From Dryococelus australis (Eukaryota; Arthropoda; Insecta; Phasmatodea; Phasmatidae), in the NCBI GenBank assembly GCA_029891345.1, contig CM056997.1, forward strand, positions 214,993,212-215,057,211: a stretch of 64,000 bases of DNA, in the 5' to 3' direction. Positions 7,212 through 63,228 of the stretch are shown here, one piece after another. The notes under the pieces were generated by a model. The model was not told where the DNA came from and did not search any database. It was given only the letters and a program-made list of their open reading frames with translations. The position numbers and the translations under genes were made by a program. Positions within the stretch are counted from its first letter, which is position 1. Each line of letters opens with the position of its first letter.

Positions 7212-7780
7212 CACTATCTACAAAAAAGTAATTGGGCACCCGTGAAGATAGGTAATTCAGTACATCAGCTGACTTGTGTTTCACGGCCTTCAGCGTAGGA
7301 CCGCTGGTGTTTGTCCGTGGTAGCATGAACACAGAGGCCTATTGTAACATTCTGGATAATGAAATGTTCCCAACATTGTGGCGTTTTTACGGAATGGACC
7401 TTTGTTACTTCCAGGGTAACACTGTCAGATGCCATGTTTCAAGGGCTAATATGCAGTGGTACGCCGACAACAATGTTCGCCGATCGGTCTGGCCCACCCA
7501 GATCCCTGACCTCAACCCTATAGAACATCTTTGGGACGAATTGGATCGCCGGGTGAAGGCTCGTCAGGCGCGGCCAAAATCCATTGCTCAACTCGTGGAA
7601 TGGTTGCAAGAGGAATGGCGACGAATCCCCGTGGATGTCCTGCAAACACTCGTAGCGAGCATGCCAGACAGGGTGGCTGCTGTTATAGCCCCAAGAGGTG
7701 GTCCTACGAGATTCTAACAGGGTGACAACCACCGAGCAAACATTGTGGACAGGTGCCCAATTACTTTTTGGTAGATAGTG
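7212..7780 (+). mobile_element. Internally deleted Tc1/mariner element with intact terminal inverted repeats
   Basis: Inverted repeats of about 29 bp bound the element. CACTATCTACAAAAAAGTAA at 7212 continues to GGGCACC at 7240, and the mirror image occupies 7752-7780 with one mismatch. At 569 bp it is far shorter than a full Tc1 element of about 1.6 kb. It keeps only the 3' half of the transposase frame. TA dinucleotides lie near both ends, but the exact target duplication is ambiguous. Confidence 0.88.
7274..7717 (+). pseudogene. C-terminal half of a Tc1-like (DD34E) transposase
   Basis: A 147-residue open frame corresponding to the C-terminal half of a Tc1/Tc3-type transposase, the cut-and-paste enzyme acting at TA sites. 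Diagnostic features are NTEAYCNILDNEM (about residues 19-31), CHVSRANMQWYADNNVRR (53-70) and the catalytic block IPDLNPIEHLWDEL (77-90), in which E84 is the third catalytic acid. The second catalytic aspartate of the usual QDNA(R/P)xH motif aligns with N49 here, giving the correct 34-residue spacing to E84 but an inactive site. The N-terminal paired-type DNA-binding domain and the first catalytic D are missing. The frame is open but the product would be inactive. Met 1 is only the first ATG in the remnant, not a true start. Confidence 0.88.
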
Positions 7781-8041: not shown

Positions 8042-8379
8042 TAGGGATGTTCGAGATATCGATACATCGATAATTACCGATATGAAAAATAACTCATAGA
8101 ACAATATGTAACTTAGAAAAATATCGGTATATAGACGTTTCGATATTTATCGAAGTTTTGTGTATTATCTACCTGTTCGGTTCTATCGGAATTTTTGGTA
8201 CCAACCAAATTTTCGGTATTATTGAAAGTTTCGGTATTATCGACATTTTTGGTATTATAGAAATGTTCCGTACTATCGACATTTATAATATTATCGACAT
8301 TCCTGATATTATCGAAATTTACAATATTATCGGTAATATAGGCATTTACCATTTTATCACAATTCTTCATATCGTCTAG
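8042..8379 (+). repeat. TCGAT-rich element end with 18-bp tandem repeats
   Basis: It opens with TAGGGATGTTCGAGATATCG, followed by ATCGAT palindromes. From about 8177 to 8345 it runs into roughly nine diverged 18-bp units of the form TTCGGTATTATCGACATT. The inverted terminus TATCGAACAGCCCTA is found at 11436, next to the same 18-bp unit. This is either one end of a long element or a damaged MITE. The open frames on both strands come from the 18-bp periodicity, not from a gene. Confidence 0.6.
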
Positions 8380-8464
8380 TTATTAAGTTAAAACATTTTG
8401 TCACCTGAAATTAAGTCTCTTTTTGTTGTGTGGAAATAAGAATAAAATATGGCATGATTGGTGG

Positions 8465-9230
8465 TAGAAGTCAGTAATGCTTGTTGACTTTTATGATTTT
8501 TTCTCGAGTTTTTTCAAGTTCATTAAAGGTCATGGAATCAAGGACAAGGTCACCTGCATCCAATATAGCAAGAGTAGTCAGTAATGTAATATCCTTTCTG
8601 ATCTTCATGATATTTTCTTCGAGTTTTTTAAAGGTCATTCAAGGTCATGATGTCAAAGTCAAGGTCACCTGCATCCAATATACTGGCAGTAGTCAGTAAT
8701 GTATAATATGCTTGTTGACGTTTATACATTTTTCTCGAGTTTTTGTTTTCAACATCATGTGGTCAAGTTCGAGATCACTAGCTTTCAAGATGCCGGTAGT
8801 AGTCATTGACATAATATGTTCATTAACATTTATGAATTTTTTACAATTTTTGGAACTAAAAAAAATGGAAATTTTAAGAGATAAAAGTGAAATTGTTAAG
8901 GGAAATGAACGCCAGGGAAGTAAAATTTAAAAGTAATTTTTAAATAATTTTAATAATAATCTTTTTAGAAATTTTTGGAATTTTCTGGAGTCAAAGGGGT
9001 CATGGGTCCTGAGTCCTGCTATCCTGACTTAGTCACCTGCTCGGTAAAAAATGGGTATTTTCTGGAGGTTGTTGTTTTGCAAATATGGAAAACGTGAAAT
9101 AGTTAAGGAAAAAATGAGTTTTTTAAAGGAAATTTAGTCAATATTGAGTGAAAAAATTTAATTTTTAAGGAAAAAAGGCAAAGGGGAATTTACAATTTGG
9201 CGGACACCAGGCGCCTGGCTCCTACTCCGG
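8465..9230 (+). repeat. Fragment related to the arms of the 50.6-56.2 kb foldback element
   Basis: About three units of roughly 107-112 bp, each with a GTAGTCAGTAATGT-like start, TTTTCTCGAGTTTTT, then AAGGTCA and a GTCACCTGCATCCAATAT-like end. The same unit type, with a period of about 115 bp, fills parts of both foldback arms (51480-51990 and 54890-55260). The A- and T-rich tail at 9030-9190, with AAGGAAAAAA-like runs and GGCGGAC, also echoes the outer arm. No terminus is preserved. Confidence 0.6.
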
Positions 9231-11190
9231 AATCCGTTGGCCCCGGACATACATTTCTCTTTTACTTATGAGCTATATATCGGCGCGTATGTCACTCGTT
9301 TTGAAACAATATCGCCATGAAAATATTTTGCGCTGCACGTGAAACAATGCGCTTAGGTTAGGATTACATTAAAATAGTTATAATGTCTGTCCTAACGATT
9401 TAATATGTATGAGCCGATACATCAAACAAAGTAATCTTATATTGCAGTGTGCGGTGTAATGGACATTCCCTCTCTCTTTCCAATATATGGTTTCTGTCAG
9501 TAACTCTATCCTTGTTCCTGCGTGCACTGTTTCCTGAAGTGTTATCTTTATCCAGCCTAAAAAAAAAAAATACCATTTTCATTGCATGCGCGCCATGCAA
9601 TCACATTGATAGGGTTTCTCACAGGCTTCATTTTCAAAGGAGTCGCTTAGCTTTGCGTCGCAGGACTGGATTCCTTTACGAGTTGGCAGGGAGGTAAACA
9701 GATAAAAATTATCTTAACCAGGCCTTTTCCTTCACCGCCCATTTGTTTCACAACTTGCCAGTTACGTCACAAAGCTGAAGCAATCTGTGTGCCATAAGCC
9801 CTGTATTGCAATCTAAGCGTGAGACGGACTATAGCTTCTGCACGACTAACCTTCTAGGTAAGTATTTTGGGGGCAAATTAGATTAAGCATTAAATGTTCG
9901 TAGGCAGTATCATGGAATATATTGTCATCGGCTAGGTGCAGTGTCATTAGTATTCTGGTGAAGTTTCTTTAATATCAGTACAGGCATGTAAATTTTATAA
10001 GCTAAAAGCATTTTTTTCATAAGCAAAGCAGTATGCCTTACCAAACGTTAGCGTTATGTACTTTATAAACTGCATGGCTGGACGAATTTTCACGAAACTT
10101 GCATTGAGTGACAAATATCATTGTGAAAGTATGGTGTAAAATTTTGGATTAATGCTGTGTAGCCATTGAGTTTCAAGAAAAAAGTTTTCGTTTTCTCATA
10201 ATGTGATAGCAATACCTGTCATTGGCTTGTGAGTGATTTTGTATTAAGATATTGATTTTTGAAGTATTAATGCAATATTAGTCTATTCTAATTGTAAATG
10301 TTGATAAAAATAATTAGTCATTTAAATGTTTAAGGCACGTTGTCTTAGGTGTGAAGCAATAAATACATCGTTATGACTAAAAGCGTGCTTTCGTTTAATG
10401 GACGAGCATTTCAGCTATTCAGCACTTTTTAAAGGCGAACGTTCGAAACGTCTTGGCGTGGTTTTTATAACGGAAAAAAGAATAAAGTTCGACATTTCTG
10501 TTATTCTGTTGACAGCTTAAACCAAATATATTTTCTTATGGCCTCGGAATGGTTGGCCACAGTCGACGGCATTAATTTATGTCTAAACAGAATAATAATC
10601 GTGAACATCAACCAATTGGCCGATTCACAAACCAATATTATGTAAAGAAATTAACGCGTACATATTTATAGTGTTGATATATATATATTTTTTTGTGTAA
10701 TGAATATAATAATGAATAATAATAAAATAATAAAATAATAATGAATAAATGAGCCAGCTGTCATAAACACCAGTTTATTTTATATGCGGGAAGATACGCT
10801 ACCAACGGGCTGAAAGTAAAAACTTAGCAGGGCTTTCAAATGCGCTCTCTTCACTGTGAACAGCCTTTAGCAGCTAGTTTGCATGTTACTTCAGATTGTC
10901 TCAGTTCTCACATTAAGATATCAGCATAGAAATCTTTGTCACAACTCGCTACTCCATCCGCCATCAAACCACCGTTGACATCTAGTGAGAAGTGAGGTCA
11001 TACTTGGTTTCTCATATCCACGGAACATTTTTTTGCCGTGAGAGTTGGTATCGGACATATATTGACAAACACTGACTTATTTTGCTTAGAGGGGATCACT
11101 AGTGTTTCTGTGTGGCTGACTGTCGCTGTACTGCATTACATGTGTTTTCTTCACATGGCAATGGTAGTTGACAATTGTTGAAAGTATTGA
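9231..11190. other. Anonymous AT-rich DNA
   Basis: No gene recognised. A good splice-donor match, AG|GTAAGTATTT, lies at 9858 after a stretch without domain-like coding sequence, so its meaning is unclear. AT/AAT microsatellite-like sequence lies at about 10677-10750. Confidence 0.45.
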
Positions 11191-18290: not shown

Positions 18291-18345
18291 TGTTCAGATC
18301 ATAGAGACCGCTAAGCCAATTAGAGCCCCCGCGCACTAGAGGACC

Positions 18346-18720
18346 ATGGTCCCAGTGACCAACGTCTTACATTATGTTATATGTAATCGCATCTTACTAC
18401 GCGACCACGACCAGCTGGTCGCGGAGATCACTCATGCGAATCGCGACCAAGATCATTCGCGACCATCGAGTTACGTGCAACTAAACGCAATCCCGCAGTT
18501 GGTCGCGAGACCAGGTATGGGACGGACGCACTGTGCTTGCGTACAAGTCGCAATGGAAGACATCGAACCATTAATAACCGAAATAAAAAGCCGCCCTGCT
18601 ATTTGGGACTTGTCTTCTGATAGCTACTGTGACAGAAAAGAGAAATATAAACAATGGGACGAAATTGTTCAAATGTTTGGAGGAGAGAACTGCGAAAGTG
18701 TCAAAGAAAAAATATGAGCT
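18346..18720 (+). pseudogene. MADF-domain part of the Harbinger partner protein
   Basis: MADF (Myb/SANT-like) domains bind DNA; in PIF/Harbinger elements a second protein of this class helps bring the transposase to the ends. In the frame starting at 18346, the likely real start is the ATG at 18553 (MEDIEPLI), because the domain begins there. The domain reads EIKSRPAIWDLSSDSYCDR, then WDEIVQMFGGENCESVKEKI, after which a stop occurs where families normally continue with a WKNLRD-like helix. A splice-donor match, GGTGAGTAAA, follows at about 18720. The C-terminal BESS part lies at 20000-20414. The 69 residues upstream of Met 18553 have no domain and come from GC-rich DNA containing a hairpin. 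Confidence 0.75.
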
Positions 18721-31041: not shown

Positions 31042-31086
31042 TACCCAGCAAACACAACCTGTACCGGCAAAGTGTCGGCAAATTGT

Positions 31087-31206
31087 CGGCCCGATACCTG
31101 TACTGTCGGCCTGTACCTGTACTGTCGGCCTGTACCTGTACTGTCGGCCCGTACCTGTACTGTCGGCACGATACCTGTACTGCCGGCCCGATACCTGTAC
31201 TGTCGG
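31087..31206 (+). repeat. 19-20 bp tandem repeat, six units
   Basis: Units of the form CGGCC(C/T)G(A)TACCTGTACTGT. The 19- and 20-bp versions differ by one A. The array occupies the left subterminal region of the enclosing element. Confidence 0.9.
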
Positions 31207-31229
31207 CAACTGTCGTTTAAATGCCAGAA

Positions 31230-32310
31230 GATAGCCATCTGACAACGGCGTGATGTCTTTTATGAGACAGATTGCTAGCCGTTAGAAAAAAGACAACGGC
31301 CCACTGTATTTTTTAGAGTAACAGATAGATATCAGCAAAAATATGTCGGCATGATATCGCAGAGAAAACATGCTGCAAGCATATTAAAAATGTTTCTGGG
31401 CCGATACCCATACAGCATCTTTGTCTTTTCGATATTCTGGCCATTATCTTATTTATACCGGCCCAGTAACGTTTTTGAGACAAGGCACTTTATCACAATA
31501 AAGATATAAATATGATCTCTTTTTACCGACAAACTTTTTGAAAGTGTTTTGAATAGGCAAGATGTTAGCAAGCTCTTAACGGCATCATGTCTTTTTTGAG
31601 ACCGAATGTTTGCCGGTAGAAAAAAAGACAATGGCTGTATGTACTTTTTTGGATAACAGATGAATATCACCGAACATATATCGGCTTGATATCGCAGAAC
31701 AAAGATGTTGCAAATATCTTTAAAATGTTTTTTGGGCCGATTCCCATACAGCGTCTTTTTTTTTTTTTTTTTTTTTAGGTAAGCTGGCCATTGTGTTATT
31801 TATTCCGACCTGGTAACGTTTTCGAGGCAAAGCTCTTTATCACAATAAAGATTTAAATATGATGTCTTTTTGCCTACAAACTTTTGGAACGTGTTTTGAA
31901 TAGACAGGTTATTAGCTAGCTCTTAATGACATCGGTGTCTTTTTGAGACAGAGTGTTTGCCATTAGAAAAAAGACAATGACATACTGTATGTTTTAGGAT
32001 AACATATGGATATAACCGGAAATATGTCGGCATGATATCCCACAGCAAACATGTGGCAAGCATTTTAAAATTGTTTCTGGGCTGATTCCCATTCAGCATA
32101 TTTGTCTTTTTTGTAAGCTGACCATTATCTTATTTATTTCGGCTTGGTAAAATTTTCGAGACAAGGCTTTTCAACACAATAAAGATATGCCTATTAAGAT
32201 GATGTTTTTTTGGAGACAAACTTTTAGAAAGTGTTTTGTATAGGTAAGATGTTAGCTTTTTGTTAATGGCATGATGTCTTTTCTGAGACCATGTGTTAAC
32301 CTTTACCATG
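31230..32310 (+). repeat. About 340-bp tandem repeat, roughly three units
   Basis: The landmark ATGTCTTTT..GAGAC recurs at about 31250, 31585, 31932 and 32272, giving periods of about 335, 347 and 340. Each unit also contains AGAAAAAAGACAA(T/C)G, ATGTCGGCATGATATC-like sequence, CCCATACAGC and ATCACAATAAAGAT. The units have diverged by substitutions and small indels, so the array is old. Confidence 0.85.
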
Positions 32311-37145: not shown

Positions 37146-39116
37146 GGAAGGATCTTCGGAGGGATAAAAAGACGCTTCATAGGCTATGGAGTGAAGAAAG
37201 AGAGCAGTTCGCCCGAAGCTATAAGGCAAAGAAGCAAGCTTACTTCGGCAGGGTCCATAAGAAGAAAGCCAAATCATGGGAGGAGTTTGTGACACAGGCC
37301 GGTAACGAGGATCCATTTGGCTTTGTGTACAAACTGGCAGCAAATAAGATCAGGAGGACGACTCCTATGCCATGTGTAAAGGTCAATGGAGAGATGGTGT
37401 CTGATTTAAGTGAGTCGATGGAGGTTCTTCTGCTCCACACACTCCTGCCAGATGACTCCCTGGTTGGAGAGGGCGAGGAGCATGCCGAGAAGAGACAGTC
37501 AATGAATATATTTCCAGATGTTCAGGATATTCCAGAATTCGACATGGAAGAACTAACTGCAGTAATATATAAAATGAAAAATGGCAAAGCCCCTGGATTT
37601 TATGGGCTGTTACTCCAGGATTAAGGACAAATTGTTGAAGATTTACAATGGCTGTCTTCGGATCGGCGTGTTTCCTGCCCCCTGGAAACAAGGGTGCTTA
37701 AGAATACTGTATAAAGACAATGATAATAACCTGATGACCCTAATTCATACCGGCCGCTGAGGTTGCTTCCAAGCTAGGCAAAGTTTTCGAAAAATTGTTC
37801 AACAGAAGGTTGATTATGGCCTTGGAAGCTGAAGGCACTAATAGCGAAAAACAGTATGGATTTCGCCAAGGAATGGTTACGGACTTCGCAATGTACGACG
37901 TCATGAAGACAATACTGGAAAGTATGGCGAAGTACATGATGGGGATCTTCCTTGACATCTCTGGTGCCTTCGACAATACCTGGTGGCCGGAAGTGATGTA
38001 TCAGTTTAAAAAGAAAAGATGTCCAGCGAACATCTATAGGGTTATTCAGAACTTCTTTAGAGAAAGGTGGAGACTTAATATGGCAAAAACCATACAAGTA
38101 AGGAAGAGGTAGACAAAGGATATCCCCAGGGGTCGTTCCTATGACCGATCTTATGGAATATCCTCGTTTATGGATTTTTTGAGTTGGGTTTTCTGCCGGG
38201 GTGTGAGGGGTTTTTCGACTATGCAGATGATGGATTAGTGGTCATTACTGGTGACTCTAGAAGACAAGGCTGAAATAATAGTGCAGAAGATATGGGAATG
38301 ATCTGCAAAGGTAAAGCTAAGGTTCTCAATCAAGAAGACCAAAACAATGATGTTAAAAGGAATATTGAAGAGACCACCGACCGTGTGCTTCTGGGGGAGC
38401 TTAGTGAAAAATGTGCATGAATATAAGCACCTGGGAGTCATCATGGATGACAAGATGAGCTTCATCAAACACATTGAGTATGTGTCAAGAAAAACAATGG
38501 TTGTGTTTCAAAAACTGAAGAGAATTGGGAATATGTCCTGGGGACTTAAATGCAATACCTTAAGAACTATATACAGATAAGTGTTTGAAACCATACTTAC
38601 TTACAGAGCTGTGATCTGGTATCACAGGGCAGAGCTGGTATATCACAAGAGGAAGCTCATCAGTGCTCAAAGGGCGGCAAGGCTGGCTGTAACTAAGGCA
38701 TATGAAACTGTGCCAAATGAGTCACTCCCGGTGATTTTGTGGGTATGCTACTTGCAGATTTGCTGGTGAAGTACAGAGGAAACAGAATGGAGAGAGCATG
38801 TGTTGCAGTACTGACACATGAAGATATGGAAGATATCATGAATGATATCTTGCTAGAATGGCAGGACAGATGGGATGGTTCAGATAAAGGAAGAACCATG
38901 TATGAGTTGCTGCCCAACATAAGGGCAAGAATGAAGAATAAGTGGATCAATGTGAATCATTACAGCATGCAAATCTTTACTGGCCATGGTAACTTCAAGG
39001 CAAAGTTACACAGCTTCCGACTCATGCAATCTCCACTGTGTGATGTCTGTGGAGTGGACGACACAGTCCAACATGTAATCATACAATGTCTCATTACCGA
39101 AGACATCAGACAGTGA
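37146..39116 (+). pseudogene. LINE ORF2, reverse transcriptase and C-terminal zinc motif
   Basis: The segments run in order. LRRDKKTLHRLWSEEREQFA opens the RT lead-in. YKMKNGKAPGFYGL is the conserved KAPG motif, KQYGFRQGMVTDFAMYDVMK follows, and GIFLDISGAFDNTWWP (about 37945) carries the first catalytic D. FDYADDGLVVITGD (38214-38255) holds the YADD catalytic pair. KHLGVIMDDKMSFIKHI is the HLG motif region, and the C-terminal zinc-binding motif is CDVCGVDDTVQHVIIQC (C-x2-C-x8-H-x4-C, about 39038-39088). These segments fall in at least three frames, with stops near 37622, 38110, 38578 and 38767. The catalytic motifs are intact but the frame is not. Confidence 0.85.
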
Positions 39117-44949: not shown

Positions 44950-45232
44950 ATGTTGGCAGTCGTCCCAATACTTGTGTCGTGTCGGACCGGTGTATGGCCT
45001 TGTTCTTTGTGGCAGTCGTCCCAATACTTGTGTCGTGTCGGACCGGTGTATGGCCTTGTTCTTTGTGGCAGTCGTCTCAATACTTGTGTCGTGTCGGACC
45101 GGTGTATGGCCTTGTTCTTTACGGCAGTCGTCCCAATACTTGTGTCGTGTCGGACCGGTGTATGGCCTTGTTCTTTGTGGCAGTCGTTCCAATACTTGTG
45201 TCGTGTCGGACCGGTTATGGCCTTGTTCTTTG
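44950..45232 (+). repeat. 56-bp tandem repeat, five units
   Basis: Units beginning CGTCCCAATACTTGTGTCGT recur at 44961, 45017, 45073, 45129 and 45185, exactly 56 bases apart, and contain GTCGGACCGGTGTATGGCCT. As 56 is not a multiple of three and the unit has no stop in any forward phase, all three plus frames stay open across the array. The unit order is nearly perfect, suggesting recent expansion. Confidence 0.95.
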
Positions 45233-49945: not shown

Positions 49946-50630
49946 TGGAGGTTAAGAACAAAACGAGATGGTTTGTGGTAGAGTTTGGCTCAGGGGAAAT
50001 GTCTGCCGCTAGATGCGCTGATATTTCAAAGAGGTCACTTTTAAACTGGCGGCCAATGGAGAAATTATATTTATCTGTATATAAAAGTTCGTGTTTGGCT
50101 CGAATTGTGGCATACACTTGCGCAAGCCAACATTTTATGTATTAACTTTTTTTCGTGACTGTTAATCAAGCCCGGCAATGGTATTTACAAAAGCAAACAG
50201 CCAAAAAAATTGGGTTTGGTAATTAATGCTCATAAGCAAGCATAAATCTGTGGCGAAAGTTACGAATCAATGTACGAATAAATATAGCTGACATCGAAAT
50301 AAACTTTGTATTTTTCTCCTTCAACTTAAGGAAACTGAGCAGGAAAGCTGTAAAAATGATACTTTAAAGTAATTTTCTCTTTCTTTTTAAAATAAAAAAA
50401 TTTAAAATTTAAAATTTAAATTAATTAAGAGTTTAAGCCAACGTTTTACACAACCCACTTGTACGACATATTATTAAACATGTGGGCATATTTGCTATAC
50501 CCAGTGCTGAAGAACAATTTTATTCTTTACGTAGTTTCTAACAAAATACAGATCGGAAGATTTTACACACTTATATTTATCCTATGAAAACGGCAATTTT
50601 CCAATTTACCTAGATACGTATCAGAAAACT
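49946..50630. other. Anonymous AT-rich DNA
   Basis: No gene, RNA or repeat recognised. A TTTAAAATTTAAAATTTAAA run lies at about 50401. Confidence 0.45.
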
Positions 50631-51479
50631 CTGGAGTAGTAGGGAAAAGTAGGTTGGCAGCCAAGGGGATCGGGGATAGGATGGCTGGATGCGAGAAGCT
50701 GACATGTTACGTCACCCATTCGCCCAGTATTTGCCTTTTTTTTTTTTTAGAATTTCCTTTTCCCCTTAAAATCAACTAAAATACCCTAAAAAGTCCCATT
50801 TCCCTAAAAAATTTCCCTTTTCCCCTCAAAATTTCCCCTTTTCCCTAAAAAAAAAGAAGCACCGAATATGGCAGAAGCTCCCCATGTGCAGAAAGAAGTC
50901 CTTGAAATCCAATTTTCTCCCAACTTAAGTCCCTCAGGACCGTCAGAGCAGTGGCAGGCATACTGATTTTATACGCATAGACTATGCTAAATCGATACAA
51001 GGGATCCAGGATCAGTATCAGACATAACCGTCACCTATCTTGGTAAGGTCAATCATCTTGTCAACAATTTTGTGTTCAGGTGACCTTTGACATCAACCTT
51101 TACCCTTGACCTCGAAAATCCGAAAAATAAATCAAATACACATCAGGTTCAAAAAATCTCAAAATATTTATTATAAAAAATTATTAATAAATTATTTAAA
51201 AACATATAATTTTTTTTTAAAACTTACATATACTAGGGCTCCGCCCAGCACCAAGCCCAGCAGAAGATTGACTTCCTCGCCCTCACCCCGTCACCTATAC
51301 TAATTCCGCCATCTTGATTTATTTTTTTGTACCTTACTGGAGGTCACCACCTTAATAGACGACCGCCATCTTGGTAAGCGACCGCCATATTCGTAGGTGA
51401 CCACCATCTTGGTATATATCACTTGTCTGTCATCTTGGAAGCCAATGCCCATTAGCAATTAAACTTTTACCTGTAATCC

Positions 51480-51990
51480 CAGACCTTGACCTTGACCCCA
51501 TGATATTTAATGACATTGAAAACAAAAAAGTCGAGAAATAAAACATCAAAGTTAGCAAGCATAATACATTAAGGACTACCACCACCATGTTAGATGCAGA
51601 CTACCTCGACCTTGACCACATGACACTGAATGGATTTGAAAACATAAACTCGAGACAAAATATATAAACGTCCGCAAGCATAACACATTATAGACTACCG
51701 CCGCCATATTAGATGCAGACTACCACGACCTTAACCCAAAGACTTTGAACGACCTTGAAAGCAAAAACTCGCAAAACAAAATATAAAAGTCAACAAGTAT
51801 AATACATTTCAGACTACCACCGCAATATGAGATGGAGACTACATCGACCATGACCCCGCGAACTTGTATGCAATTGTAAACAAAAACTCGCGAAAAATAC
51901 ATTTAAGTCAGCAGTATAATACATTACACACTAACGCCGTTAAATTAGATGCAGACTAACTCGACCTTCACCCCATGAACTTGAATGAAC
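51480..51990 (-). repeat. 115-118 bp satellite in the left foldback arm
   Basis: About four units marked by AGACTACC(A/G)CC..AGATGCAGACTAC followed by GACCTT, spaced about 117 bases. They are the inverse of the units at 54935-55260 and related to 8465-8830. Confidence 0.8.
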
Positions 51991-52464
51991 TTGAAAACGA
52001 AAACTCGGGGAAAAATTATAAATAATTGCGGAACATATAACGTCAAACCCGCTTCCCTTGCTGGCCCTTTCCCCACTACCCCAGCCTTGACCGTCCCAAA
52101 ACGCATCGACCGCCCCCACACCGCCCTCTTCTTCATTCCTACTGACTGCAGGCTTCACCTCTTTCCACACTGTCTTGCCCCATCACGCCTGCATCAACCT
52201 ATTCCCTTTTAACTCCAAATCTGTTACATCCAACGTGCTTAGAATATATTAACAAAATTAACCCAATCTAATTTTTGGTACACTTCTTTCCAACATATAC
52301 ATCTGTTACCATAGCATTTATTATGCCTATAAAGTGATAGACCATTACAGCAGATACTTTAATTATAATATACTTTGACACTTCATTTGATTTTTATTAT
52401 TGTCCTATTTTCTATCTTGCAGAGGCTGAGGCAGAGGCGGAGGCAGACTCGTTTGTAATTGCTT

Positions 52465-52890
52465 GAAGATCTGTCCGTTACCACAACTATCGTAGGAAGG
52501 CTGAAGCTGAGGCTGAGGCGGAGTCGATTGTACTTGTATGAAGATCTGTCTGTTATCACAACTGTAGTAGGTAGGCTGAAGCTGAGGCTGAGGCGGAGGC
52601 GGAGTCGATTGTAATTGCTTGAAGATCTGTCTGTTACCACAACTATCGTAGGAAGGCTGAAGCTGAGGCTGAGGCTGAGGCTGAGTCGATTGTACTTGCT
52701 TGAAGATCTGTCTGTTACCACAACTATCGTAGGAAGGCCGAAGCTGAGGCTGAGGAGGAGTCGATTGTACTTGTATGAAGATCTGTCTGTTACCACAACT
52801 ATCGTAGGAAGGCTGAAGCTGAGGCTGAGGAGGAGTCGATTGTACTTGTAAAAAGATCTGTCTTTTTACTACAACTATCCTGGAGAGGCT
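52465..52890 (-). repeat. 75/81-bp tandem repeat, six units, open on the minus strand
   Basis: Units begin GAAGATCTGTCTGTTACCAC at 52465, 52540, 52621, 52702, 52777 and about 52852, giving periods of 75, 81, 81, 75 and 75. All are multiples of three; length changes are whole 6-base GAGGCT/GAGGCG steps. On the minus strand the array is open as 25-27 residue repeats with TIVVVTDRSSYKYNRLRLSL. It adjoins the zinc-finger-like piece of the left arm. Confidence 0.9.
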
Positions 52891-52929
52891 GTGGTCGAGG
52901 CAGAGGCGGTGGCGGAGACGGAGTCGATT

Positions 52930-53340
52930 ATGTTGCTGAGAACAAATGCTACATGTTTCAGAATGTATGTTGAAAATGTCACCCCGTGTAAATTGCTTGT
53001 TACAGAAATCGCATTCAATTTTCCATTCGAATATTTAATCTTGCAGGCCGTTATTTCGTTTAGCCGCAAATTCCGAAAAGCTGTCTATGTTTTACCGCAG
53101 TAACGACCCAGCAGATGCATCATTGGCATTTTTATGTCTGTACTGGTCCAACTCGTGAATGATACTGAAACGAAAATTCATGAAAGGCGCATATTTATAC
53201 TTATGTGGAAACTCGATCTCAGAATCGACACTGGCGACAACCAGTTAGCCATGACGCTGGGTCCACGACCCTATGATCGTCAACGTCATAGGCAGCCCTT
53301 CATATTCGCAATTCATCTTTGTGGTATAGGAGCACTTTGA
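52930..53340 (-). pseudogene. Zinc-finger-like coding remnant, left foldback arm
   Basis: On the minus strand, about 53030-52955, one frame reads ECDFCNKQFTRGDIFNIHSE, a C2H2-like finger pattern, continuing toward the 75/81-bp array. A related stretch is on the plus strand of the right arm. Upstream on the minus strand a shared block begins KMNCEYEGL (about 53310). Protein family and function are unknown. Confidence 0.45.
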
Positions 53341-53380
53341 GAAAACCCGAGTACTTGTTCGACCAAGTAAAAACGCAGAT

Positions 53381-53979
53381 TTTATAATATATGATAGGGA
53401 TATATAAATTATGTTTTATATGAAATGGGAATATAAAATATATGCTTATTTAGATAAATATATATTTATATTAATATGTAAATGTATATAAGTTTGTAAA
53501 TAACAATTTTTTTACAATTTAATTTATATATAAGTATAATTGTATAAGCATGAAAATTTAAAATTATTTACTATGTATTTGAAATGTAAGTGTAATTATA
53601 TAAGATAGGAAAATAAAATTATTTGTAAGGTTATATAAATATGCATAGGTATATAAGTAAGTAAATAAAAAGTATTTTAAATTTTTCTGATACATATGTA
53701 TACGTAATTAAGTATGTAAATATATAATTATTTTTAATTTAATTTATATGTTTATGTTAGGATATATTAATGTCTAAATATGAAAGTATTAACAATTTAT
53801 TTTATATATAAGAAGAGGTATATATTTATGTAAAAATAGAATAATTTTGAATTTAATTTATACATAATTACATATATGACTACAAAAATTATAACAATTT
53901 ATATATATATATATATATGTTCATGTAACTATCAACAAATGAAACTATTTTAAATTTAATTTATGTAACAAAACAGATT
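53381..53979. other. AT-rich centre of the foldback element
   Basis: Very AT-rich, with TATATA and TAATTTAATTTAT-type repeats; no gene. A degraded ATTTTAAATTTAATTTAT motif recurs about every 60-120 bases. Confidence 0.7.
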
Positions 53980-54044
53980 GTTATGTAAGTACCTGCGTGT
54001 TTTCTTGGTCGAAAGAGTATTAGGGTTTCATCAGAGTCCCGCGA

Positions 54045-54490
54045 AGATGAATTTCGAATATGAAGGGCTTCTTTTTGACCTCGACGATCATGGAGCCGGG
54101 AACCCTGCATCATCGCTATCTAGTTGTTGCCAGTGTCGATTCTACGATAGAGTTTCCTCCAAAGTATAAATACCCGCCTTTATGCATTTCCGTTTCAGTA
54201 CCATTTACGACTCGGAAAAATGCGGACATAAAAATGCCAATGATGCATCTGCTGTAAAGGTTCAGCGGTAAAACGTTTACAGCATTGCAGAATTTACAGC
54301 GACACGAAATATCGACCTGCAAGATGAAAACTTCGAATGTGACATTTGAATGCGATTTCTGTAATAGTCAGTTTACACCGAGCGATATTTTGAGCAGGCA
54401 CTCTGAAACTTATACCACTGGTTCTAAGCAACTACAATCGGTACCGCTTCCGTCTCCATCTCCGGCTCTGCCTCCTCCTCAGCATCCGTA
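54045..54490 (+). pseudogene. Zinc-finger-like coding remnant, right foldback arm
   Basis: The start KMNFEYEGLLFDLDDHG (about 54045) is shared with the left arm. Downstream, 54285-54491 reads MKTSNVTFECDFCNSQFTPS followed by DILSRHSETY, matching the left-arm finger at ECDFCNxQFTxxDIxxxHSET. It ends in a Pro-rich tail (PLPSPSPALPPP), where the left arm has the tandem array. Function unknown. Confidence 0.45.
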
Positions 54491-54889
54491 AGATGGAATG
54501 GAGCAAAATAATAAAAATCAATTGATGTGTCAAATTATGTTATTACTTAAATAATTGCTGTAATGGTCTATCATTGTATGTGCATGATCAATCATATGGT
54601 AACAGGGGCATATGTTGAAATGAAGTGTACAGAAACGAGAGTTGGTTAACATTGTTACATTCTAAGCAGTTTGGATGCAACATGCTTGGAGCGAGGAGGG
54701 AAAAGTTCTAGGCAGGCCAGATGAGTAAGTCAGTGTGGAAAGAGGTGTTAGCCAGCAGTTAGAAGTGATGATGAAGAGGGAGGAGGGGTGTGGTTGGTCG
54801 ATGATTTTTGTGACGGTCAAAGTTGGGGTAGTGGTGGAGGGGCCAGCAAGTGAAGGGGGTCTAATGTTATATTTTCCTAAATTATTTAT

Positions 54890-55330
54890 AATTATTCAAC
54901 GAGTTTCGGTTTTCAAGGTCATTCAAGGTCTTGAGGTGAAGATCGAGATAGTCTGCATCTAATATGGCGGTGGTAGTCTGTAATGTATTAAGCTTGCTGA
55001 CTTCTATGTCTTTTTCTGGATTTTTTATTTTCAAGGTCATTCAATGTCACAGGGTCAAGGTCGAGGTAGTCTGCAACTAATTTGGTGGTGTTTGTCTGTA
55101 ATGTATTATACTCACTGACTTTTATGTATTTTTTCTCGAGTTTTTCAAGGTCATTCAAGGGTACGGGGTCAAGGTTGATGTAGTCTGCATCTAATATGGC
55201 GGTGGTAGTATGTAATGTATTATGCTTCCTGACTTTTATGTAATTTTCTTGAATTTTTTGTTTTCAAGTCATTCAAGTTCATGGTGTCATGGTCAGGGGT
55301 TTGGGGTCATGGTTCACAGGTCAAATTTCC
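54890..55330 (+). repeat. 115-bp satellite in the right foldback arm
   Basis: TAGTCTGCATCTAATATGGC-type starts at 54949, 55067 and 55181, each unit with TTTTTCAAGGTCATTCAAGG and GGGTCAAGGT. This is the inverse of the left-arm array. Confidence 0.85.
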
Positions 55331-56167
55331 ATTACTAATGGGCATTGTCTTCCAAGGTGACAAACAAGTGAAATATACCAAGATGGTGATCACCTAAAAA
55401 GATGGCGGTCGCCTGCCATATGGTGGTCGTCTACCAAGATTGTGACCTCCAGTAATGTATAAACAAATAACAAACGAAAAATCAAGATGGCGGAATGAGT
55501 ATAGGTGAGAGGGAGTGGTGGCGAGTGTGTCAATCGTCTGGGGAGCGAGGAAGGGGGGGGGGGGTGCCCCTTCGGAAATGTAAGTTAGAAAGAAATGTTA
55601 TAAAATAATTATTTATAATTTTTAATAATTAATTCTTAATAATACATTTTTTTGAATTTCTCGAATTATTTGTGAATATGTTTTAATTTTTCGTATTTTC
55701 AAGGTCAAAAGTCAAGGATAAAGGTCACCTGAACCCAAAATGGTGGACAAGAAGGTTGACAAAACCAAGATAGCTGATGTTTAAGTCTGACTCTGTTCCT
55801 GGATCCCTTGTATCGATTTGGCATACCCTATCCCTATAAAACCAACATGGCCACCACTGCTCTGACGATCCTAAGGAAGTCCCCAAATTACTTGAATTGG
55901 GCGAAAATTGGTATTCGAGGGCTTCTTTGTGCACATGGAGGCTGCTGCCATTTTGGGGGCTTTTTTTAAGGGAAAAAATGGGAGAATTTGAGGGGAAAAG
56001 AGATATTTGTAGGGTATTTTGGTTGATTTTGAGGAAAGAAAAGAACATTTTGAGGAAAAAAAGGGATAAAATGGCGGACGGGTGACGTAACAACATGGCG
56101 GCTCCTCGCATCCTGCCATCCTATCACCAATCACCTTGGCCGTCAACCTACTTTTCCCTACTACTCT

Positions 56168-57980
56168 CCCGTACACGTGCGAAACCAGTGCACCTTCGCG
56201 GCGAAAATGGTTAGTTGCCAAAGTAAAAGCATTGAGTTTCCCAACTTGAGTAGAATACACCTTGCTTCAGTATACAGTTACATCGCCTCCGAACATGTTC
56301 CTATCGCAGTCACTTCTTGTTAAAAGTCAACTTTCGTGTAAGTACATCACAACGACTTTTCTTCTGTGTTTTACTTCGATCGGCTGCTATGATGTTTAAA
56401 AAACAATACTATTAAAATGGCAGAAGTGAGTGGGGATTGTCTGCTTTCGTCGAAAAAAAAAATTCAGGGCTATTATCTATTTGCATTGTACTATTACATT
56501 ACAAGTAAGGTAAACTGTATAAAAAAAACTTTACATTAATATTGGCAGGAAGCCATTTGAAATAATTACGGAAGCTTGTTTTTGAGGTTAGGTTTTGCTT
56601 TTGTTTCCAGTCAGTTTCAGAGGTGTGACCACGCAAACATGTTCACTTTGGTAGCCATATAATAGAACGTGTTTAATTTGTTGCCGCAGTAACATGTTCA
56701 CATTAATAAGTCAGCTTTGGTGTAGCCGCAATGTCAACAAGTTTGCTGTGACACTTCCAGCGTGCTAATGCTGGCGGAATTGCAACGGTGTGCATTCTCC
56801 AGACATCCAGACAGTAATCCGATCACGAAGACTGTTAATTGTCTGAGTGCTGAGTGCTCAGGCCCCCATCTCGCCCCAGAACTAGTTACCCAGGCTACCA
56901 TACTCCGAATATAGTACAGTTATCCGCCTTTACTGACGTACCTCAAGCACTGCAATGACGTGCAGTTTCCACACGGCTGTCTGCTAACTGTCGAAAAACC
57001 AGACATTTTACCGTCCAACGGCATTTTAATTTCAAGGCATCGCTTGGTAATCTCTAGTCCTGGTTGTTAAGGTTTTATCTCCAGTACGTGTAGCCTATGT
57101 TCCTTGTTCGAACCTCGGATAAGTCAAGGATTTGTGTGTAGTTTTTGGGTGTAAGGCTAACTTGGTTTATAATGAAGGGTGTCTACTTATTAATATATAA
57201 GTATGAAATTCCAATAAAAATATCCATAACCCATGCTAGTGATTTATTCACTACTAAGCTTTCAGCGTTGCATTTCTTGTAACCACTTTTACTCGTGTAT
57301 GTGCACAGTCGGAAGTATTTCCTTAAAGTCTGGAGTACAAATTCGATAGAGTTTTTAGTTAATATTTCATTTTCTAGATATCACTCAAATATGCGTTAGC
57401 CATAGAAATATTTTGTAATTTTTCTCTATGTTTAACAGATTGACTATTTATTAATTTAAATCGGAGCAGTTTCTAAATGCCTACACAATTATGAAAAGCA
57501 AAAGTTCTAATTTATTTGAGAGAGAAATACAGTATTTTTGAGAGTGAAACACCATTCTTGTACAGAGAAGAGTTGTATATTTTCCAGGTTATTACCAAAC
57601 AATCCGTAAAGTGGAAAACTAACAATTTGATATTTCAATGAAAAAGCCAACAAAAACTGTAAATGATTAGGCATAATATGTTGAACATACTGTTCTGGTC
57701 CCTCGATCAGACTCTTGTTACAATCTTAATCTCTACTATGTTAAACTCTCAGTTATCTGTATAAATACCTGGGAGCGAACTTGATGGCGTCAAATAATAA
57801 TTCAGATAATTTACAAAACTACTAATTTAATTTAAGCTTGAATTACAATAAATTATAGAATACTATAAGAACAAAATGTAGCCAGTTTCTTGAACGGAAT
57901 CCTCAGAATGTTTTTGCAAGAAAAAGGACAATATACTATAGCTGATATACTACTTTACATTAATTTAGGTTATACTTTTA
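56168..57980. other. Anonymous DNA
   Basis: No gene, RNA or repeat recognised. Confidence 0.45.
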
Positions 57981-59110: not shown

Positions 59111-60820
59111 TTGGTGGGCTATAGTAGCATTGGTAAACTATAGTTGCAATGTTGTGCTATAGTAGCAATGGTGGTTGATAGTAGCAATGGAGGGTGATTG
59201 TAGCAATGGTGGGATAAAGTGGCAATTGTGGGTGATGGTAGCAATGGTAGGTGATAGTAGCAATGGTTGCCTATAGTAGCAATGGTGGGTTATAGTAGCA
59301 ATGTTGGGCTATAGTAGCAATGGTGGGTGATAGTAGCAATGAGGGCTAAAGTAGCCATGGTGGGCTATAGTAGCAATGGTGGGCGATAGTAGCAATGGTG
59401 GGCTATAGTAGCAGTGGTGGGCGTTAGTAACAATGGTGGGCGTTAGTTGCAATGGTGGGCTATAGTAGCAATGCTGGGCTATAGTATCAATTGTGGGTGA
59501 GAGTAGCAATGGTGGGTGAAAGTAGCAATGGTTGCCTATAGTAGCAATTGTGGGCTATAGTAGCAGTTGTGGGTGATAGTAGCAATGGTGGGTGATAGTA
59601 GCAATGGTGAGTTATAGTAGCAATTGTGGGGTATAGTTGCAAGTGTGGGTGATAGTAGCAATGGTGGGTGATAGTAGCAATGGTGGGTGATAGTTGCAAT
59701 TGTGGGCTATAGTAGCAAGTGTGGGTGATAGTAGCAATGGTGGGTGATAGTAGCAATGGTGGGTGATAGTTGCAATGGTGGGTGATAGCAGTAATGTTGG
59801 TCTATAGGATCAATGTTGGCCGATAGTAGTATAGATGGGCGATAGTAGCAATTGTTGGTGATAGTTGCAATGGTGGGAGATAGTAGCAATGGTGGGCTCT
59901 AGTAACAATGGTGGGCGATAGTGGCATTGGTGGGCTCTTGTAGCAATGGTGGGTGATAGTAGCAATGATGGTATTAATATCAATGGTAGGCGATAGTAGT
60001 CATGGTGGTCTATATTAACAATGGTGGGCGATAGTAACAATGGTGGTCTATAGTAGCAATGGTCGACTATAGTAGCAATATTGTGTTATAGTAGCAATGG
60101 TTCGTGATAGTAACAATGGTGGGTTATAGTTGCAATTGTGGGCGATAGTAGCTATGATGGTCGATAGTAGCAATGGTGGGTGATTGTAGCAATCGTGTGT
60201 GATATTAGAAATGATGGGCGATAGTAGCAATGTTGGACGATAGTAGCAATGTTGGGTGATAGTTGCAATGAAGGAAGATTGTAGCAATGGTGGGTGATAT
60301 TTGCAATGGTGGGATATAGTTGCAATGGTGGTCTATAGTAGCAATGGTGGGCTATAGTTGCAATGGTGTACTATAGTTTCATTGGTGTGCTATAGTAGCA
60401 ATGGCGGTTGATAGTAGCAATGGTGGGTGATAGTAGCAATGGTGTGCTATAGTAGCAATGGTGAGCTATAGTTACAATGGTGGGTGATAGTAGCAATGGT
60501 GGGTGATATTAGCAATTGTGGGCTATAGTAGCAATGGTGGGCTATAGTAACCATGGTGAGTGATAGTATCAATCGTGGGTGATAGGAGCAATGGTGGGAT
60601 ATAGTATCAATGGAGGGCGAAAGTAGCAATGGTGGGATTTAGTAGCAATGGTGGGTGATAGTAGCAATGATGGGATATTGTAGCAATGGTGGGCTATAGT
60701 AGCAATGATGGGTTATAGTAGCAATGGTGGGTGATAGTAGCAATGTTGGGCTATATTAGCAATGGTGGGTGATAGTAGCAAAGGTGGATGATAGTAGCAA
60801 TGGTGGGCGATAGTGGCAAT
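59111..60820 (+). repeat. 19-bp minisatellite, about 90 units
   Basis: Units of the form GGTGGGCTATAGTAGCAAT, with common variants GGTGGGTGATAGTAGCAAT and TTGGGCGATAGTTGCAAT-like changes. It covers 1.7 kb with a nearly constant period. No spacers intervene, so it is not a CRISPR array. Since 19 is not a multiple of three, the minus strand shows several long Ser/Pro/Tyr-rich open frames in shifting phases, none of them genes. Confidence 0.97.
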
Positions 60821-63228
60821 GCGCGGTTCAAAAAAGTTTCAAACCACTAAATGAGAAATGTATGACTTCATGTACCGTCTTGCGGGCTAATCACGGGAGT
60901 TCTTCTCAGCTACAGACAAAAGAGAAATTTTTCTCACAAAAACGATTTATATAATAAACGCCACTATCACGTATACATTTCATTCAAGTCTCCCGAAAAT
61001 TGATATTTTTATCATTAATTCACTGTGTTATCGACTCGCATTGACGGGGAGATTGAATCTACCACGTGGAGTCTGTGAGTGAGAATGTTTTTTTCCTCTC
61101 GGGAATTGTAGCCTCGAAAATACAGTCCTCGCTGCTTCCGACACGGACGCTGATACCTCTACAAATTTCAGGTCGTTAATTTCTTGCATAACACATTTCC
61201 CTCTCAGACATTTCAGTTAGCCGGCGCGGAGGCGTCGAGCTACTCTACTGGCAGACATCGCCTCTAGCGGGAGTGAAATTAGGTGCTGAATATTTCATAG
61301 CAGCGTTTGTCTGCTGCCTTAAAGAGGAGCGATTGCGCGCTCCGCGTCTGCTGAAAACGAGAAGCAGTCGAAAAAGTAGCTTTAAAGTTTTCCTTGCCGC
61401 CTCCTTATACGGAACGCGTATTTGCAATTTTGTTTCGCAGCCTTTAAATACAGCTCGCTCACGGAGTTTTACATATAGCTGAGTATGTAATGAAATTTGG
61501 CAAGCGATGATACGTTTTTGGCTAAGTGTTATGCGATCGTAAAAATAACGCTAGCAATTACTCTTCATGTTGTACAAATGAATGTATTTAAGCACGGACT
61601 ACAAAAGAGTATATTATATGACAACGTAGCTCTCAGTCTGAAAAGAGATGGTTCGTTGAAGTCTGAAAGACATGGTGTCCTTTTGAAACATGTCTTCGGT
61701 TGATTACTACAGCGCAAGTACGCGAAACCACATCTGTGAAAGGCTGATTACGTCTGCGCAGAAGGAAAAAGAAAGAACTTACCTACGCGCCAGTCTACTA
61801 GATGCAGTTCTGTGGTGATGGTGCATACTAGCAACAGAAGTGTTATGGATTGCACTGATACGCGTACTACATAGTCGCACGTCTCTACAAGCAAGCCTTT
61901 GAACTGGCGTAACGCTGATCGTCAGTCTGTGCCTGGTAACCTTCTTGTTTGAATAATCGATATAAACCAAGTGGGTACTCTCCCCAGGCCATTTTGTTGG
62001 TATGATCTTACAAGGTCCAATACATTTATATGGAATAAATGCACGTTTCAAAAACCGATTATGCTTCTTTTGAACCTTGGAATACTGGTTACAGTGTTCG
62101 GGAGTGTTAAAAATACACGTTATCACACGTGGGATTATTGAAATAAAAATGAACGTTTTGTTTATACGACGAACAAAACTTAAGAGGGTTTGGCATGTAA
62201 TTCGAATGTATTGTATGCTTGACGGTAAATAAATAACAGGTACGCGTATATAAACGAATCCGAACCCATTTTGGTGCTGCCATGCCAGTTTATATTGAAA
62301 ATGTATTTATCTTCTGCTAGATAAGCAAGAAATGCATTGTGTGTCACGATATCATTTGTATAATGTTTGCAACGAAAACGCATTTTTCTTCTTCGTAATA
62401 ATTCTAGTACCTTATTTGTAGCAAAATAATAAAATAACTACAAGTGCAAAAAATGTATTTTATAGAGAAGAAATAAAAATTTTAAAAACCATTTTCTAGT
62501 TTTATTAGTTTAGTCACAAGCTCACGCATTAAGAGTTTTAAGGTTAAGTATGATATAAATTTAAGTAAGTATTTTGACAGGCATATTACTGATGATAATT
62601 TTTATAAATTTTTGGTGACAATGGATGGCATTGTGTGGTACATTTTTATCAAACATAATTAAGTTACTTAGATATGTGATATGACAGTAGTTTCGTTATG
62701 CGACAGCTTCTTGGACGCTGTTATTTATTCAAGTACTGTGAAATAAATAAGTAACATAAGCTGAACTATTACATTTATTTAAAATACCGGAATCTGGCAA
62801 TTTAGGACCTTGCCCAAGAATGGCAAAAAAAAAAAAAAAACATTTGAAATTGCACGTGGCCATGCTTATACGTTGAGATAAATGTATACTTACTAAATGA
62901 TAAATTTCAATTACTTACAATATTTTTTTAAAAATAATTTTACTTAAATACGTGTTAGGTTATTTGAACATAAACATAGTGGGGAAAAAAACGGCGTATA
63001 GAAAATCATATTAATGAAAATTCACTTGGAAAGCTACAAAAATCAAGATGATAATCGTAAAAAATTATTAATTTCGTTTTCTTCAAGTGTTTTTTTGAGT
63101 CCATCATAAAAATGTTTACTTTACTCGCGAGAGAGATTAATTGTAGTGTAAACAAATGGGAAACTGGGTAGGGGTTAATTTTACATCATAAACAAAAAAT
63201 GCATACATAACACATTCACGGTCAACAT
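60821..63228. other. Anonymous DNA
   Basis: No gene recognised. The 115-residue minus-strand frame at 61779-62126 has no domain I can name. An A-tract lies at 62824-62840. Confidence 0.45.

Follow-up and report, generated by a model that had tools for sequence, protein, structure and literature searches.

Two long DNA arms lie inverted around an AT-rich centre in a 64,000-nucleotide stretch of the Dryococelus australis genome (the whole stretch analysed, hereafter the window), which raises the question of whether they form one mobile element and, if so, of what kind. An earlier note had drawn the edges at 50632 and 56167 and had proposed a single foldback element as a candidate for an undescribed type. 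A single palindrome was indeed found, with its edges redrawn to window positions 50635-56165 (no strand assigned; 5.5 kb; ends AGTAGT...ACTACT).

Extent of the palindrome and a third arm

The left arm (50635-53378, plus strand, 2744 bp) and the inverted right arm (53993-56165, minus strand, 2173 bp) are separated by an AT-rich centre of 614 bp (53379-53992, no strand assigned), with a loose 53-58-bp periodicity and a GC content of 14% over 53401-53989. Aligning one arm against the reverse complement of the other, as had been proposed, gave 79.1% identity over 2123 aligned columns (K2P 0.245); the local alignment score was 1175, compared with a maximum of 39 for controls comprised of 60 random window segments of the length of the right arm. 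A previous alignment that included some flanking DNA had given 77.9% identity over 2206 columns. Identity per full 100-column block ran from 0.67 to 0.85 without interruption, and this evenness is expected if the arms started out identical. The inner homology ends at 53378 on the left and at 53993 on the right. Inverted arms of more than 2 kb are thereby confirmed, and their divergence agrees with an old foldback element and not with a recent duplication.

From the outside towards the centre, each arm consists of a terminus, a subterminal part bearing AGGTCA, a satellite with a unit of 114-119 bp, and an inner part. The satellites, previously described as 115-bp repeats, have a 119-bp unit in 4.6 copies on the left (51483-52022, plus strand) and a 114-118-bp unit in about three copies on the right (54910-55294, minus strand). 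The terminal 156 nucleotides, folded as DNA, showed nothing special in structure (z 0.78), and Rfam returned no matches at the gathering threshold.

A related fragment had been reported at 8465-9230. It is real, and is better described as a single arm at 8459-9266 (minus strand) that carries a terminus (at 9266), part of the subterminal region and the satellite; the claim of a dispersed family is accordingly supported by at least one further arm within the window. This arm is shorter than those of the palindrome and has no match to their inner gene-like part, and its terminus is in register with theirs, giving three termini in register. No partner arm was found for it in the window, and the arm profile gave no match at E 10 against the reversed window, used as a control. 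Two one-mismatch copies of the outer 6 bp plus AG upstream were considered as a partner end; neither was exact and they were judged unconvincing. Mean identities between satellite units were 0.761 within the left arm, 0.738 within the right, 0.763 between left and right, and 0.746 between the single-arm units and both; these values do not reveal which units are orthologous.

Termini, candidate target duplication and gene-like units

The inverted outer ends were verified, AGTAGTAGGGAAA being exact at both; the terminal motif AGTAGT lies at 50635-50640 (plus strand) and 56160-56165 (minus strand, ACTACT on the plus strand). The terminus at 9266 reads AGTAAA, not AGTAGT, and shares AGTA with the palindrome. 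As it opens with AGTA next to a different flanking base, the position of the edge does not depend on the palindrome alone.

The motif (AGT)2//(ACT)2 is the commonest end motif of the vertebrate Mavericks described in PMC8097293. The ends of the palindrome match it, although the published motif is short, comes from vertebrate elements, where it stands beside two other types, and was compared once the ends were already known. The fraction of window positions lying within 1 bp of a plus-strand AGTAGT start is 0.0009. Immediately outside the ends are CTCTGG (50629-50634, plus strand) and CTCCCG (56166-56171, plus strand), a candidate target duplication of 6 bp, the Maverick length. Four of the six bases agree, and about 4.7 would be expected from the 79% arm identity by the authors' own arithmetic. 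At a fixed edge, agreement in at least four of six bases has a chance probability of 0.043; if any length between 4 and 10 bp is allowed, 0.142 of random pairs show a two-thirds match. At the AGTAGT edge no other pair of flanks agrees at 60% or more, and none does so at 7-10 bp; the one 8-bp match (5/8) requires the edge to be moved 2 bp inside AGTAGT. The 6-bp duplication is the best fit.

The inner part of each arm holds a decayed, outward-facing gene-like unit with TATA, TCAGT, ATG, a finger relic, a Pro-rich tail and AATAAA, and the order TATA-TCAGT-ATG-finger piece-AATAAA is kept in both arms. The left core-promoter-like block with its start codons (53109-53199, minus strand) contains TATAAATA at 53192-53199, TTTCAGTA at 53163-53170 and ATGCCAATGATGCATCTGCTG at 53109-53129; in its right counterpart (54165-54254, plus strand) these lie at 54165, 54193 and 54234-54254. 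The TATA-TCAGT pattern has six matches over both strands of the window, two of which are the arm units. On the left, the decayed finger piece (CDFCNKQFTRGDIFNIHSETC) is followed by a six-fold Pro/Gln-rich repeat of 24-27 residues (52405-53034, minus strand); on the right, a decayed finger piece with a Pro-rich tail has a second, degenerate finger-like stretch ahead of it (54258-54491, plus strand). Blocks bearing AATAAA follow at 52389-52401 (minus strand) and 54507-54519 (plus strand).

The outward finger-like pieces noted earlier are therefore present in both arms, but as weak matches. Translation of the window in six frames gives two occurrences of the strict pattern C-x2-C-x12-H-x3..5-[HC]; one of them is in the left arm, and the right arm, with its last ligand changed, has none. 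The right piece matched Pfam zf-C2H2_4 with an E value of 3.4e-4 and the left piece with 0.8, neither of which reaches the curated cut-off. Both units are broken, and arm identity over them is not raised. Arm mismatches by codon position are 7/49, 10/48 and 15/49, which points to little or no constraint on coding. The Pro/Gln repeat likewise lends no support to constraint, as variable columns are alike across codon positions (7, 7 and 8). A second frame of this repeat is also open, and a repeat unit whose length is a multiple of three may be all that keeps the frame open. GTAAGAT in the right arm was considered as a splice site and rejected, since this sequence is not shared by the left copy and is followed by a stop and AATAAA.

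All 30 stop-to-stop ORFs of at least 55 aa overlapping the element were scanned with Pfam. None matched the Maverick core genes (PolB, rve integrase, capsid, packaging) or a transposase domain, in keeping with the earlier statement that no mobilising gene is recognisable. The element is consequently not classed as a Maverick proper, only as a probable non-autonomous derivative. In a viral contig collection, DNA probes for the terminus, the start-codon block and the satellite had no matches, and protein probes had 2 and 273 pattern matches, among which no relative was confirmed. The satellite probe had three matches in a genome contig collection, all of them on bacterial contigs that are rich in GC and in which TTCAAGGTCA forms short tandems; these were attributed to chance, as the arm profile there did no better than E 0.01, over some 30 columns.

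Comparison with known elements and alternative origins

The (AGT)2//(ACT)2 ends and the terminal inverted repeats (TIRs) resemble those of Maverick/Polinton elements as described in PMC8097293, and 6 bp is the best-fitting length for the candidate duplication. In contrast to the elements of that source, the palindrome has no PolB, integrase, ATPase, protease or capsid gene in its ORFs of at least 55 aa, measures 5.5 kb against 12.7-24.6 kb, and carries satellites and a gene-like unit within its arms. The TIRs of the intact vertebrate Mavericks described there span 46-1447 bp, a range exceeded by the present arms, which make up nearly the whole element. Among the openly searchable literature, most subscription papers being outside the search, no paper was found with the phrases “non-autonomous/nonautonomous Polinton/Maverick” or “Maverick-derived”. 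The phrase “Polinton-derived” does occur.

Long TIRs, internal tandem repeats and a middle domain place the element in the foldback structural class. Tetris of Drosophila virilis, compared here by layout, is described as non-autonomous, with TIRs composed of a flanking domain, ~220-bp tandem repeats and an inner domain around a non-coding middle domain; it differs in its 8-10-bp duplications and in complete copies reported to lack conserved ORFs (PMC4079207). Galileo, of the P superfamily, has long TIRs whose internal tandem repeats are described as secondary transposase sites, but it encodes a THAP/P-type transposase, none of which was seen in the ORFs scanned (PMC3688188). The Tm1 Mutator/Foldback elements share composite multi-domain TIRs with tandem repeats, and a gene in some members, whereas their duplications are given as mostly 9 bp and their repeat motif as ~14 bp (PMC3169594). 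With a layout found in these foldback transposons and tips bearing the Maverick motif, the element is best interpreted as a non-autonomous offshoot of an already described kind, and the claim of an undescribed type is not sustained.

These comparisons suggest, at about even confidence, a dead, non-autonomous, foldback-shaped DNA transposon with Maverick/Polinton-type ends. A less probable alternative is a non-autonomous foldback from one of the cut-and-paste superfamilies (P/Galileo-like, Mutator-like or other), in which AGTAGT would be coincidental and the duplication lost. The long arms, tandem repeats and middle domain described for Tetris, Galileo and Tm1 fit this origin, and sites for a transposase might lie in the satellite, as reported for Galileo; against it, the 7-10-bp duplications described for those families (7 bp in Galileo) have no match at 60% or better at the AGTAGT edge, and no transposase domain occurs in the 30 ORFs.

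It is quite improbable that a one-ended or short-TIR element inserted twice in opposite orientations to give the two arms, or that they result from host DNA duplicated locally in inverted form. The lone arm without a partner in the window would suit separate insertions, as would a 5/6 match of the right flank CTCCCG at 54036, close to the inner end of the right arm (best matches in the controls averaged 4.06 and reached 6). The inner-edge flank matches are nevertheless inside the control range at the two lengths controlled, 6 and 8, and the arms share both their inner stop and their outer terminus, so that the independent insertions named in the earlier note as its refutation are unsupported; the terminus shared with 9266 favours a mobile end over host duplication.

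Short sites were also considered. AGGTCA/TGACCT exceeds all 200 shuffles in four of nine parts (the satellites of the right arm and the single arm, and the two outer parts that lie outside the satellites), exact TCAAGGTCA occurs seven times in the three arms and nowhere else in the window, and CCGCCAT occurs four and six times in the two palindrome arms against shuffle means of 0.17. A domesticated regulatory palindrome, with paired finger genes of the host and with AGGTCA and GCCAT-type sites that are presumably bound by host proteins, would accommodate these counts but is very improbable: a single site is multiplied whenever its satellite is copied, five of the nine parts have no AGGTCA excess (including the left satellite, whose count is reached in 43 of 200 shuffles), CCGCCAT is absent from the single arm and occurs nine times in the remaining window, and the gene-like units are broken.

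A possible Maverick-derived origin

If the element is a Maverick-type derivative, an autonomous Maverick would have supplied in trans the rve-type integrase that cut and joined the (AGT)2 ends, and integration would have given a 6-bp duplication, by now decayed. By analogy with the Galileo repeats and transposase, the satellite and the AGGTCA-bearing subterminal part may have served as repeated sites for an end-recognising protein. On this view the parent element carried the outward finger unit at one end as an accessory gene, and mirroring of that entire end would have left two copies. Speculatively, the mirror could have arisen by snap-back of the displaced strand in protein-primed replication, which would explain the mirrored terminal gene. 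Symmetric defective genomes, the analogue of such a palindrome, are known from adenovirus. The fuller proposal, of a chromosomal fossil of a Maverick snap-back defective genome in which one parent end (terminus, satellite and outward finger gene) was copied onto itself during strand-displacement replication, so that a palindrome with a doubled origin and a doubled terminal gene spread at the expense of the parent, is improbable.

Were the Maverick reading true, virus-like giant transposons would also yield foldback-shaped parasites, and a source would be available for some orphan foldback elements and for TIR-borne satellites. The mirrored terminal gene would then be genomic evidence for protein-primed replication, testable by sequence alone.

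Inverted arms, satellites and a related single arm

One palindrome spans window positions 50635-56165. Its left arm (50635-53378, forward strand) was aligned end to end with the inverted right arm (56165-53993, reverse strand), giving 79.1% identity over 2123 columns with 201 transitions and 242 transversions (K2P 0.245). The local arm score was 1175, compared with no more than 39 for random segments (n=60). The inner limits of arm homology, 53378 and 53993, enclose 614 bp, with a GC content of 14% over 53401-53989; the alignment bears out the inverted arms around an AT-rich centre described in an earlier note. The satellite claimed for each arm was recovered by Tandem Repeats Finder, with a 119-bp unit on the left and a 114-118-bp unit on the right.

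The window contains other tandem repeats: a 1.7-kb array at 59112-60821 (approximately 90 copies of the 19-bp unit TGGTGGGCGATAGTAGCAA, 79% matches); a 347-bp unit at 31244-32289 (approximately three copies, 76% matches), adjoined by a 19-bp array at 31084-31207; and a 56-bp unit at 44954-45232, in five near-identical copies (96%) with several open frames.

The left (AGTAGTAGGGAAAAGTAGGTTGG) and right (AGTAGTAGGGAAAAGTAGGTTGA) termini are in register with each other and with a third terminus, AGTAAAAGAGAAATGTATGTCCG, at 9266. The base just outside is G, G and A, respectively, and because that of the third terminus differs, the element edge was placed at AGTA. In a window search, a profile built from the outermost 200 bp matched the 9266 end with E 5e-10. 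The runner-up in the window had E 1.6, and nothing in the reversed window scored better than E 0.65. The related fragment proposed for this region is a shorter arm (9266-8459), colinear with both element arms: its terminus is followed by a portion of the subterminal region and then by satellite. Inward of this satellite, no further significant match was found. An 18/36-bp array of TTTCGGTATTATCGACATT type lies at 8207-8332, approximately 130 bp past the inner end at 8459.

AGGTCA/TGACCT exceeded 200 of 200 shuffles in four of nine parts, namely the satellites of the right and single arms and the outer non-satellite part of each element arm; the left satellite, the inner part of either element arm, the centre and the outer part of the single arm showed no excess. 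Exact TCAAGGTCA, which we take to be an FTZ-F1/ERR-type nuclear receptor site, occurs once in the left arm, four times in the right and twice in the single arm, and nowhere else in the window. By analogy with the Galileo TIR repeats, which PMC3688188 describes as bound by the THAP domain of the transposase, we read these as putative end-recognition sites.

Outward gene-like units and coding capacity

The outward order in each arm is TATAAATA, TTTCAGTA and ATGCCAATGATGCATCTGCTG, followed by finger pieces and a Pro-rich tail, with an AATAAA block last. The spacing from TATAAATA to TTTCAGTA is 20 nt in the right arm and 21 nt in the left; TCAGT is presumably an arthropod-type initiator. The left arm's clear finger reads CDFC...H...C, its right-arm counterpart has an altered last ligand, and in both arms the second finger-like stretch preceding it is degenerate. 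Across six frames of the window the strict finger pattern has two matches, one of them in the element. Pfam zf-C2H2_4 matched both arms under its curated cut-off (right E 3.4e-4, left E 0.8). The outward piece noted earlier stands in both arms, but its zinc-finger character is weak.

Both units are disrupted: an in-frame stop and a length change interrupt the left one, and in the right one a stop separates the ATG codons from the fingers. The left-arm tail has grown to six Pro/Gln-rich repeats of 24-27 residues each. Coding constraint on the unit was not demonstrated by mismatches between arms per codon position (7/49, 10/48, 15/49), variable Pro/Gln-repeat columns per codon position (7, 7, 8) or block identity (0.74-0.82, not above the 0.79 average).

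Thirty stop-to-stop ORFs of at least 55 aa overlapping the element were Pfam-scanned, one minus its first residue. All matches, finger models included, were under curated cut-offs, and no Maverick core gene or transposase was found among them, in keeping with the earlier reading that no known mobilising gene is visible. No relatives were found in viral or prokaryote collections. Three of seven Pfam-scanned window ORFs hold relics, which suggest a eukaryotic host: a C-terminal Tc1-type DDE transposase fragment (7256-7717; DDE_3, E 5e-6, slightly under the curated cut-off), a LINE-like reverse transcriptase piece (37744-38112; RVT_1, E 3e-11) and a MADF DNA-binding domain piece (18340-18717; E 6e-8).

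Element ends, target duplication and origin

For vertebrate Mavericks, PMC8097293 gives three end-motif types, (AGT)2//(ACT)2 being the commonest, and reports duplications of 6 bp and TIR lengths of 46-1447 bp. The element ends exactly in AGTAGT//ACTACT, a suggestive pointer to Maverick from a comparison made post hoc against three published motif types, with the ends already known. An AGTAGT start lies within 1 bp (forward strand) of 0.0009 of window positions.

The flanks were scanned for duplications at seven edge shifts and lengths of 2-12, keeping matches of at least 60% and at least three bases. Two passed: CTCTGG/CTCCCG (6 bp, 4/6) at the AGTAGT edge, and CTCTGGAG/CTCTCCCG (8 bp, 5/8) with the edge shifted 2 bp inwards. 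The candidate 6-bp duplication is weak, matching at only 4/6; the chance of at least 4/6 at a fixed edge is 0.043, or 0.142 for two-thirds identity at any length of 4-10.

The best explanation, to which we give an even chance, is a now-dead, non-autonomous element whose ends are of Maverick type, which a trans-acting integrase inserted in one piece and which is folded back through mirroring of a parent end. The main rival, which we consider appreciably less probable, is an ordinary cut-and-paste foldback element resembling Tetris (PMC4079207) or Tm1 (PMC3169594); the duplication length argues weakly against it. Two independent inverted insertions are improbable; inner-edge flank matches, controlled at lengths of 6 and 8, stayed inside the control range, the best being 5/6 for the right flank (control mean 4.06, maximum 6). 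Under the Maverick-type explanation, the integrase would insert the whole element as a single unit, and mirroring of one parent end would give the foldback shape; snap-back during protein-primed replication could account for this mirroring and leave both arms with a terminal gene.
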